From Pyrococcus sp. ST04 (GTDB lineage: Archaea; Methanobacteriota_B; Thermococci; Thermococcales; Thermococcaceae): DNA of 64,000 bases. A program made the position numbers and the translations under genes. The stretch lies in the NCBI RefSeq assembly GCF_000263735.1, contig NC_017946.1, forward strand, positions 1,405,348 through 1,469,347, given 5' to 3'. The notes below the pieces were generated by a model that was given only the letters and a program-made list of their open reading frames with translations, was not told where the DNA came from and ran no database searches. Positions 49,843-63,907 of this stretch are shown here, piece after piece (within the stretch, counting starts at the first letter, position 1; the number at the start of each line of letters is the position of its first letter).

Positions 49843-50619
49843 ATGAAGTATGCAGTTATAGGAAACTTTACCATAGATATTATTAACGGGAAGAAAAGAC
49901 CTGGAGGAGGGGCCTATTACTCGGGATTAGTGCTCTCAAAGTATGCAAAAGTAACAGTTTATGCAAAAATAGGGCCAGAATATCCGGAGGAATGGATTAG
50001 GGATATCGAGAGGTATGTGAAAGTTATCCCATTTCCAGCTGACTCAACGACCTCCTTTGAACTTGTGTACGAAGGAGAGTCAAGGGTCTTGAGAGTTCTA
50101 TCAAAAGGAGAACAATTCACCCTAAGAGAACTGAATAGCATCAAAGAGAGAAGAGTTATAGTAAACCCAGTTTCCGGAGAAATAAGACCGGAACACTTAA
50201 CTGTATTCAAAAATCCCTCCCTCGATGTTCAAGGATTCGTAAGGGAGCTTAAGGATAAAGTCGAGATAAAAAACGTCGATGGGAGCTTCTTAAATAATTG
50301 TAATATTGTTCATGCATCTGCCGAGGAATATAAGGCCCTAGTCAATCCTGGAACACCAAACATATTGGCAGTGACCAACGGAAGTAGAGGGGGTGTTCTT
50401 AAACTTAGGGATGGAAGGGAAATTAAGTTCGAACCAAAGAGAGTACATACAGAAAACCCGACAGGAGCAGGTGATGCATTCTTAGCTCTTCTAGTTTATG
50501 GTATAGACTCCTTTGGTATAGAGGAGGGCCTAAGGTTTGCAATAGATGAAACAGCAAAATTCTTGAAACTTGGATTGAAAAATTATCTAGACCGCGATGA
50601 TGACGCCTCGATTGGCTGA
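49843..50619 (+). CDS. PfkB-family carbohydrate kinase
   Basis: This 258-residue ribokinase-fold kinase has the N-terminal RPGGGAYYSG sugar-binding glycines and the C-terminal NPTGAGDAFLALL anion hole with catalytic Asp. It is shorter than ADP-dependent sugar kinases and belongs to the ATP-type PfkB family; the sugar or nucleoside substrate is not evident. The frame opens at 49810, but the TATA box lies there, so ATG 49843 is used. The last 8 codons and the stop lie inside a box C/D RNA; the stop TGA is part of its D' box. Confidence 0.88.
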   Translation: MKYAVIGNFTIDIINGKKRPGGGAYYSGLVLSKYAKVTVYAKIGPEYPEEWIRDIERYVKVIPFPADSTTSFELVYEGESRVLRVLSKGEQFTLRELNSIKERRVIVNPVSGEIRPEHLTVFKNPSLDVQGFVRELKDKVEIKNVDGSFLNNCNIVHASAEEYKALVNPGTPNILAVTNGSRGGVLKLRDGREIKFEPKRVHTENPTGAGDAFLALLVYGIDSFGIEEGLRFAIDETAKFLKLGLKNYLDRDDDASIG

Positions 50620-50652
50620 GTCGCGATGATTGGGAGGGACTTAGCTGAGCGG
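50592..50652 (+). ncRNA. Box C/D guide sRNA candidate 1
   Basis: The 61-nt element has terminal stem CCGC/GCGG, box C GATGATGA (50596-50603), a 12-nt guide CGCCTCGATTGG, box D' CTGA (50616-50619), box C' GATGATT (50625-50631), a 13-nt guide GGGAGGGACTTAG and box D CTGA (50645-50648). Order, spacing and size are exactly those of Thermococcales 2'-O-methylation guides. By the N+5 rule the D guide would modify a G and the D' guide a U; I could not place the targets with confidence. It overlaps the end of the PfkB gene and runs into the NUDIX ribosome-binding site. Confidence 0.88.
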
Positions 50653-50660
50653 TGGTGAAA

Positions 50661-51170
50661 ATGAACCGGTATGTTCTCCTAATTAAAGCCCCAAAAGGAA
50701 CTGATATCTCAAAGTTTAAAGAGGAAGTTGAGAACTTAGCAAAGAAATATGGGTTAAAAGCTGAGCTTCACAGGTGTATAGGGTTAACAGTTGACTTAAT
50801 AATAATCTACAACAACGGAATAGTTTTCGTAAAAAGAAAGAACGAGCCATACAAAGGGTATCTAGCGCTCCCTGGAGGCTTTGTTGAATATGGAGAGAGA
50901 GTTGAAGAAGCCGCGATAAGAGAGGCAAAGGAAGAAACAGGATTAGATGTGAAACTAGTTAGGGTAGTAGGGGTATATTCTGACCCCAACAGAGATCCTA
51001 GAGGTCACACCGTCACCATAGCTTTCCTTGCAATTGGAAGTGGTCAGCTCAAGCCAGGAGATGATGCAAAGGAGGCAATCGTTGTCCCAATAAATGAAAT
51101 TGAAAAAATAAAAGATAAACTTGCGTTTGATCACTCAAAAATACTCGAAGATGCCCTCACCTTGAAATGA
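50661..51170 (+). CDS. NUDIX hydrolase
   Basis: This 169-residue protein has an N-terminal domain of about 50 residues and a NUDIX domain with the complete box (GGFVEYGERVEEAA then REAKEETG). Archaeal members of this type hydrolyse ADP-ribose or oxidised nucleotides; SDPNRDPRGHTV is the segment typical of ADP-ribose pyrophosphatases. ATG 50661 is preceded by GGTGGTGA, itself overlapping box C/D RNA 1; the GTG codons in that RBS are rejected as starts. The end overlaps convergent hypB. Confidence 0.93.
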   Translation: MNRYVLLIKAPKGTDISKFKEEVENLAKKYGLKAELHRCIGLTVDLIIIYNNGIVFVKRKNEPYKGYLALPGGFVEYGERVEEAAIREAKEETGLDVKLVRVVGVYSDPNRDPRGHTVTIAFLAIGSGQLKPGDDAKEAIVVPINEIEKIKDKLAFDHSKILEDALTLK

Positions 51171-60490: not shown

Positions 60491-60548
60491 AGGCGATGAA
60501 GAAAATTTCGCTAGCTGATAGATGATGAGTACCCTCGCAACCGAGCCT
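60491..60548 (+). ncRNA. Box C/D guide sRNA candidate 3 (23S rRNA target)
   Basis: Terminal stem AGGC/GCCT encloses box C GATGAAG (60495-60501), guide AAAATTTCGCTAG, box D' CTGA (60515-60518), box C' GATGATGA (60521-60528), guide GTACCCTCGCAA and a degenerate box D, CCGA (60541-60544). The D' guide can pair over ten bases with UAGCGAAAUU, the near-universal 23S rRNA strand following helix 69; by the N+5 rule the target is the C of UAGC (C1934 in E. coli numbering as I count it). It has its own promoter, and its 3' end overlaps the lrpA stop on the other strand. Confidence 0.8.
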
Positions 60549-60972
60549 ATTTAAGCCTCTCCAAGATTATCGCTGGGCAAACCTTTGTTACCCCATCTAT
60601 TTTGCCTATTTTGTTGGAAATTATGTCCGCAAGATCTTCCCCGTCCTTTGCCCAGATAACGGCCATTATCATGTGATCTCCACTAGAAAGATAAAGCTCC
60701 CTAACAAACTCAAACTCCTTTAACTTTTCAGCTACTTCAAAGAGCTTCTCCGGCCTCGTATCCACTCCCGTAATAGTCACCAGCGAATAGCCAAGCTTTT
60801 TGGGATTTAGCTTTATTGTATAGCCCTCAATTATTCCCTTCTCTTCAAGCGCCCTTACCCTTTTTCTCACTGCTGTCTCGCTGATTCCTAGCCTCTTCGC
60901 GATTTCCGTGAAGGGGGTTCTCGCGTCTTTCACGAGCATGTCGAGTATAATCTTATCCCTTTCATCTATCAT
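60547..60972 (-). CDS. lrpA: Lrp-family regulator LrpA
   Basis: This 141-residue protein is the orthologue of P. furiosus LrpA ([18 protein letters not shown] start). The HTH is [21 protein letters not shown] (in part) and the RAM effector domain follows. P. furiosus LrpA represses its own promoter by blocking polymerase recruitment. ATG 60972 is used (GGTGG 8 nt upstream); a frame to 60984 is open. It lies near gdhA as in P. furiosus, here with a CRISPR array between. Confidence 0.95.
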
Positions 60973-61000
60973 TTTTCGAACCACCTTAGTATAAATTCAG

Positions 61001-61144: not shown

Positions 61145-61683
61145 AAGCGAATACTATTTAGTTCTTCGGAAACCTAGCAAGAAGGGTAGAAAAAGAGCTA
61201 GAAGCAGACATAATAAAACTCTTTCCATACTATTTAGTTCTTATTTAGTTCTTCGGAAACAGTAGGGCCAATGAAAGGGCTCATAAACGCTAAATTTCTT
61301 TCCATACTACTAAGTTCTTCGGAAACAGTGGCCTTGCAGAGAATACTCAGAATAGAGATAGTTACCGAGGACTTTCCATACTATTTAGTTCTTCGGAAAC
61401 AAGAAGTATTATAGAGCGTTGAGGAATGGTAAGCAGGTTTTGTGCTTTCCATACTATTTAGTTCTTCGGAAACACGAAAACACCCCATTGGGAGGCGTTA
61501 CGTTTCTTTGACGGTGATCTTTCCATACTATTTAGTTCTTCGGAAACTTGTGTCGTCATGGAGATACTCTTTTACATATAAGTTTTCGGCTTTCCATACT
61601 ATTTAGTTCTTCGGAAACCGGCTCCTGACGTCTTTATTTTTTTGCACCCTCTTACTTTCCATACTATTTAGTTCTTCGGAAAC
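61145..61683 (-). CRISPR. CRISPR array, 8 repeats and 7 spacers, transcribed leftward
   Basis: The 29-nt repeat reads, on the transcribed minus strand, GTTTCCGAAGAACTAAATAG followed by TATGGAAAG. Copies are at 61145-61173 (first 6 bases of the plus-strand unit lost), 61221-61260 (40 nt), 61298-61326 (2 substitutions), 61372-61400, 61445-61473, 61519-61547, 61590-61618 and 61655-61683 (the last five identical). Spacers are 47, 37, 45, 44, 45, 42 and 36 nt. Divergent copies at the low-coordinate end mark the old trailer end, so the leader is at 61684 upward. The 3' end ATGGAAAG would be the crRNA 5' tag. No cas gene is in the window. Confidence 0.97.
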
Positions 61684-63850: not shown

Positions 63851-63907
63851 CCCTCAGCGGGAAGTCGGTCATCATCAAATCAGCTCACTCCAGTTCCAAT
63901 CATCGGG
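63851..63907 (-). ncRNA. Box C/D guide sRNA candidate 2
   Basis: On the minus strand a CCC/GGG terminal stem encloses box C GATGATT (63904-63898), a 14-nt guide GGAACTGGAGTGAG, box D' CTGA (63883-63880), box C' GATGATGA (63876-63869), an 11-nt guide CCGACTTCCCG and box D CTGA (63857-63854). Arrangement and length (57 nt) fit Thermococcales C/D RNAs. By the N+5 rule the D guide points at an A and the D' guide at a C; targets are not identified. The stop codon of the upstream gene lies within box C. Confidence 0.82.

Follow-up and report, generated by a model that had tools for sequence, protein, structure and literature searches.

Gene overlaps involving archaeal C/D box RNAs are well described. 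About 25% of the C/D RNA genes in six archaea carry the stop codon of the gene upstream, and the stop may lie in any of the four boxes (PMC7994747). In T. kodakarensis, the C/D RNA sR61 (Tko-sR67) is 62 nt long, with ends at 2070055-2070116, a mapped start at 2070114, 100,212 reads and 92 circular reads; it is one of six C/D RNAs lowered at least twofold in a ligase knockout (PMC9014305). C/D RNAs usually have targets within 100 nt of each other, and one methylation hotspot is formed by helices 35/35a (PMC4644070). RiboMeth-seq data for P. furiosus are said to be available at GEO (PMC7758197). A role in mRNA repression, by way of k-turns, has also been proposed for the protein L7Ae (PMC5539422). 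Here, a C/D RNA between a pfkB and a nudix gene of Pyrococcus sp. ST04 is compared with these systems. The window, that is, the whole stretch of 64,000 nucleotides that was analysed, comes from an archaeal genome of 1.74 Mb. Its relevant features are the following.

49843..50619, plus strand: gene of a PfkB-family carbohydrate kinase (Pfam PF00294; from the open reading frame list)
50592..50652, plus strand: C/D box sRNA sR20 with terminal stem (Rfam RF01140 match; 9 of 9 genus genomes)
50592..50595, plus strand: 5' arm of the terminal stem, CCGC, partner of 50649-50652 (from the sequence)
50597..50603, plus strand: box C, ATGATGA (from the sequence)
50604..50615, plus strand: D' guide, CGCCTCGATTGG; forms 11 Watson-Crick pairs with 23S CCAAUCGAGGC without a mismatch; predicted 2'-O-methylation of U790 (E. 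coli numbering)
50616..50619, plus strand: box D', CTGA; the TGA inside it is the PfkB stop codon
50623..50629, plus strand: box C', GCGATGA (from the sequence)
50630..50644, plus strand: D guide, TTGGGAGGGACTTAG; nine perfect pairs to 23S AAGUCCCUC; predicted 2'-O-methylation of G707 (E. coli numbering)
50645..50648, plus strand: box D, CTGA (from the sequence)
50649..50652, plus strand: 3' arm of the terminal stem, GCGG; shares its last two G with the NUDIX Shine-Dalgarno
50651..50657, plus strand: NUDIX Shine-Dalgarno-like GGTGGTG (from the sequence)
50661..51170, plus strand: NUDIX hydrolase gene (Pfam PF00293, 87.3 bits)

An sR20 RNA between pfkB and nudix

The first-pass annotation had proposed a C/D RNA with four boxes and a CCGC/GCGG stem at 50592-50652, and all of these elements were found there. 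A sequence check gave an order and spacing of boxes C, D', C' and D that are correct for an archaeal C/D box sRNA. The match of the Rfam sR20 covariance model (RF01140) spans 50593-50650 and scores 54.8 bits against a gathering cutoff of 44 bits (window E-value 5.5e-9); model positions 1-56 are covered, which makes it a whole-length match. A strict four-box pattern is found at one place in the window and in none of 60 first-order-Markov copies. The RNA belongs to the sR20 family of archaeal C/D box sRNAs, has two guides and is not a product of chance. Minimum-energy folding of the region does not return the C/D fold; the genome of the window gives another hairpin, which is missing in several relatives. 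Without protein, k-turns are not expected to yield the C/D fold in minimum-energy folding.

The boxes are conserved in related genomes, and sR20 scores above the cutoff in all nine genomes of the genus, always between PfkB-type and NUDIX genes. In one of them (G005), C' differs by one base. The exact sequence of the D' guide plus box (CCTCGATTGGCTGA) is present once in each of the nine genus members and in 0 of 28 other genomes. In a wider comparison anchored on the NUDIX gene, which leaves out one g5 locus (G032), RNAs of this architecture sit directly upstream of NUDIX in 9/9 g2, six g5 and four of the eight g6 genomes. No RNA was found at the NUDIX-anchored locus in the other four g6 genomes, the g3 genome and two g4 genomes. 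The D guide core GGGACTT is common to most relatives in other genera, and the D' guide is different there.

The box C and box D consensus of a k-turn is present, and the third k-turn pair covaries in the sequences of relatives. This pair, box C base 5 with box D base 2, reads U/U, A/U in g5, or G/C in g6 and in one g2 genome; two genus members have U/C, which shows that the pairing is not strict. Box C is invariant in the nine genus genomes, and its fifth base is variable in other genera. In g5 and g6 this base is the third codon position in an Asp-Glu-Glu tail of PfkB, where the protein may constrain box C and box D may compensate.

Rfam matches are also found elsewhere in the window. An sR39 C/D sRNA (60492-60546, plus strand, C box ATGAAGA) adjoins, tail to tail, the convergent minus-strand frame 60547-60984, which reads as an Lrp-like regulator from its sequence. 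A short CRISPR array of six repeats (61298-61683, plus strand; Rfam CRISPR-DR41 match) is preceded by degenerate repeat-like copies at about 61150-61270.

Guides and their predicted rRNA targets

Searching rRNA with the two guides, as the first-pass annotation had proposed, gave 23S targets for both, clear for D' and probable for D. In the window genome all 11 of 11 D' guide positions pair with 23S CCAAUCGAGGC, with U790 at the fifth base from the box; by estimate, about 0.001 chance matches of this length are expected in rRNA. In each of the eight genus members whose 23S was read, the D' guide has an unbroken Watson-Crick match of at least 11 pairs to it, and U790 is the likely target. The D guide makes 8-10 consecutive 23S pairs across these members and nine in the window genome, at G707, which is probably its target, less certain than that of D' given the short match. 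The two predicted sites, both in the helix 35 region, are separated by 85 nt. A competing 16S site for the D guide has 11 pairs, including one G-U; in T. kodakarensis it does not rank with the best matches. The 16S sites 551 and 1084 were set aside as the main D guide target, as a preference rather than proof, because the match to 23S G707 is the more consistent one among genera and this site is 85 nt away from the D' target. L7Ae, Nop5 and fibrillarin are predicted to bind both box pairs, and the guides would then direct 2'-O-methylation of 23S U790 (D') and probably G707 (D).

In other genera the D' guide reads ACGTCAGCAYG (CATA in one) and makes 10/10 pairs around 23S C743 in all 17 genomes compared. 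Guide and rRNA change together: rRNA GTGCTGACGT is found with guide CAC and rRNA ATGCTGACGT with guide CAT, so that a G-to-A change in 23S is matched by a C-to-T change in the guide (C-to-U in RNA) in five genomes. For G028 and G034, the match was predicted from three earlier genomes before their rRNA was seen, and both agreed. A small number of independent events may account for the covarying substitutions. All genomes with the C743 guide have GACGT at the C743 site; GATGT is found there in the four RNA-less g6 genomes and in the genus of the window. The RNA-less g6 genomes (G033, G027, G035 and G024; L112, L113, L115 and L116) share GATGCTGATGT at the C743 guide site.

The end of PfkB within the RNA

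The upstream open reading frame has a likely start at ATG 49843, with another opening at GTG 49810, and its PF00294 match is weak (27 bits against a cutoff of 25.8). Its last eight codons (RDDDASIG) and stop lie inside the guide RNA. The TGA at 50617-50619 forms bases 2-4 of the D' CTGA, and the claim that box D' supplies the PfkB stop is confirmed. The boxes carry TGA in all three frames, and any reading frame that enters sR20 therefore ends at a box; PfkB stops in D' because it enters in the frame closed by D', the other two being closed by the remaining boxes. The stop lies in D' in 7/9 genus genomes, 5/6 g5 genomes and 4/4 g6 genomes with the RNA. G002 and G029 have it in or at the C box, and in G007 and those g2 genomes where the stop was located it comes 5' of the RNA. 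Within the genus alone, one genome has a C-box stop and one a stop upstream of the RNA. A D'-box stop as a selected feature was rejected, since every frame is closed by some box and relatives differ in where the stop lies. The coincidence is an ordinary, commonly described arrangement. The proposed overlap with a stop in a box is therefore real, but less unusual than it was made out to be: the RNA is already Rfam sR20, the arrangement is common and the D' location is not fixed.

A minus-strand Rfam sR58 C/D sRNA (window 63852-63907) overlaps the 3' end of a minus-strand open frame of at least 383 codons. The TGA stop of this frame lies 3 nt into CGATGATT at the RNA start, the same arrangement as in sR20 and PfkB.

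Codon use was compared in the seven genomes with the PfkB stop in D'. Seven of the eight third positions in the overlapped codons are invariant, against 9/241 in the rest of PfkB. Among invariant residues, a single codon is used for 7/7 in the overlap and for 2/71 elsewhere in PfkB (Fisher p about 1.4e-8). In the overlap it is the RNA that keeps the codons frozen, and the guide RNA thus dictates the PfkB tail, as had been suggested for the last PfkB residues. PfkB can probably do without this tail, because G007 and G002 stop earlier.

The same data bear on whether the boxes could be a chance by-product of the acidic PfkB tail codons GAT GAT GA, with no RNA at all. PfkB in two relatives without the RNA does have a DEE-containing tail, encoded GATGAAGA, as such an origin would allow. 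However, third codon positions are frozen in the overlap only, the RNA is kept where PfkB stops earlier (G007 and g2 genomes), and the Rfam sR20 match speaks for an RNA, which leaves this explanation extremely improbable.

Production of the RNA and comparison with known systems

The overall reading of sR20 as a guide RNA with rRNA targets that overlaps pfkB and is most likely excised from its transcript is very probably correct. The sR20 gene shares DNA with the end of the PfkB gene, and in Pyrococcus sp. ST04 the RNA would most likely be cut out of the pfkB-nudix transcript, because there is no TATA box where one group of relatives has it. That group is g2, where box C is preceded by a TATA-like box at a distance of 32-33 nt in 8/9 genomes. 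None was found at this position in the nine genus genomes, where the best matches reach 4-6 of 8. Matches in g5 and g6 are weak and also encode PfkB residues, and no conclusion on a TATA box is drawn for them. Alternatively, a genuine C/D RNA could have a promoter of its own inside pfkB instead of being processed from an operon transcript. It would then resemble these g2 relatives and be in keeping with the start mapped in T. kodakarensis (PMC9014305), but no comparable TATA match lies upstream in any of the nine genomes of the window genus, and this alternative is unlikely. The comparison shows homology, synteny, codon constraint and guide-target pairing that covaries in relatives; expression, methylation, co-transcription and excision in Pyrococcus sp. 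ST04 are inferred.

The T. kodakarensis copy of the sR20 locus (2070061-2070115, minus strand) coincides with the published sR61/Tko-sR67 (PMC9014305), whose 3' end falls 2 nt before the NUDIX ATG. This position makes it plausible that excision also cuts the bicistronic pfkB-nudix mRNA. The NUDIX start at ATG 50661 is backed by conservation, as Thermococcaceae homologs align from that Met; the frame also opens at GTG 50652. Since the stem ends at 50652 and GGTGGTG begins at 50651, the last two stem bases are the first two Shine-Dalgarno bases, and the proposal that the RNA ends in the NUDIX Shine-Dalgarno is borne out as a two-base overlap (50651-50652). Most relatives have a motif similar to GGTGGTG at the same distance from the NUDIX ATG. 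In the T. kodakarensis copy (L088, G031), the stem CACC/GGTG is formed with the NUDIX Shine-Dalgarno-like GGTG itself.

The use of part of the NUDIX Shine-Dalgarno by the terminal stem in most lineages, together with the proposed L7Ae repression of mRNAs through k-turns (PMC5539422), could also mean that the element stays in the mRNA as a cis-acting k-turn through which L7Ae represses NUDIX translation, with no trans guide. A cis switch, however, needs neither conserved guides nor their covariation with rRNA, the T. kodakarensis copy is excised and circularised, and in 5/6 g5 genomes the 22-24 nt between the RNA and the NUDIX ATG leave space for a separate Shine-Dalgarno. This arrangement is very unlikely, and a trans-acting guide RNA is the preferred reading. 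A broader idea is that each copy of the stretch serves as guide or as NUDIX leader, never as both, so that guide production would tune NUDIX: excision would remove the Shine-Dalgarno start, and L7Ae on the uncut transcript would cover it. Relatives would have moved between embedded genes and free-standing ones with a promoter of their own, and over the same time one guide would have acquired a new target in the same rRNA helix region. This idea is speculative and distinctly unlikely.

Both the RNA family and the type of gene overlap are already known, and the finding as first given is ordinary. The comparative details were not found described in the literature compared, the original sR20 and Tripp 2017 papers aside, and may be known. 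A comparative series at one syntenic locus is useful because guide and rRNA target change together in it; the series also shows a guide differing between genera, a target site altered in four RNA-less genomes, and a gene that alternates between TATA-preceded and mRNA-embedded states across relatives. It is open to testing in genetically tractable Thermococcales.

Rfam RF01140 sR20 has the same boxes and guides across the genus; nothing essential differs, and the window RNA is an ortholog. T. kodakarensis sR61/Tko-sR67 (PMC9014305) shares with it the position directly upstream of NUDIX, the D guide core GGGACTT and the architecture. Unlike the window RNA, sR61 has a D' guide to 23S C743 rather than U790, a TATA-like box of its own and no overlap with pfkB. 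The archaeal C/D genes that overlap the 3' ends of open reading frames (Tripp et al., 2017), as far as they are recounted in PMC7994747, likewise hold the upstream stop in a box. Compared with the overlaps described in that account, the one at this locus comes and goes among close relatives alongside the presence or absence of a TATA-like box.
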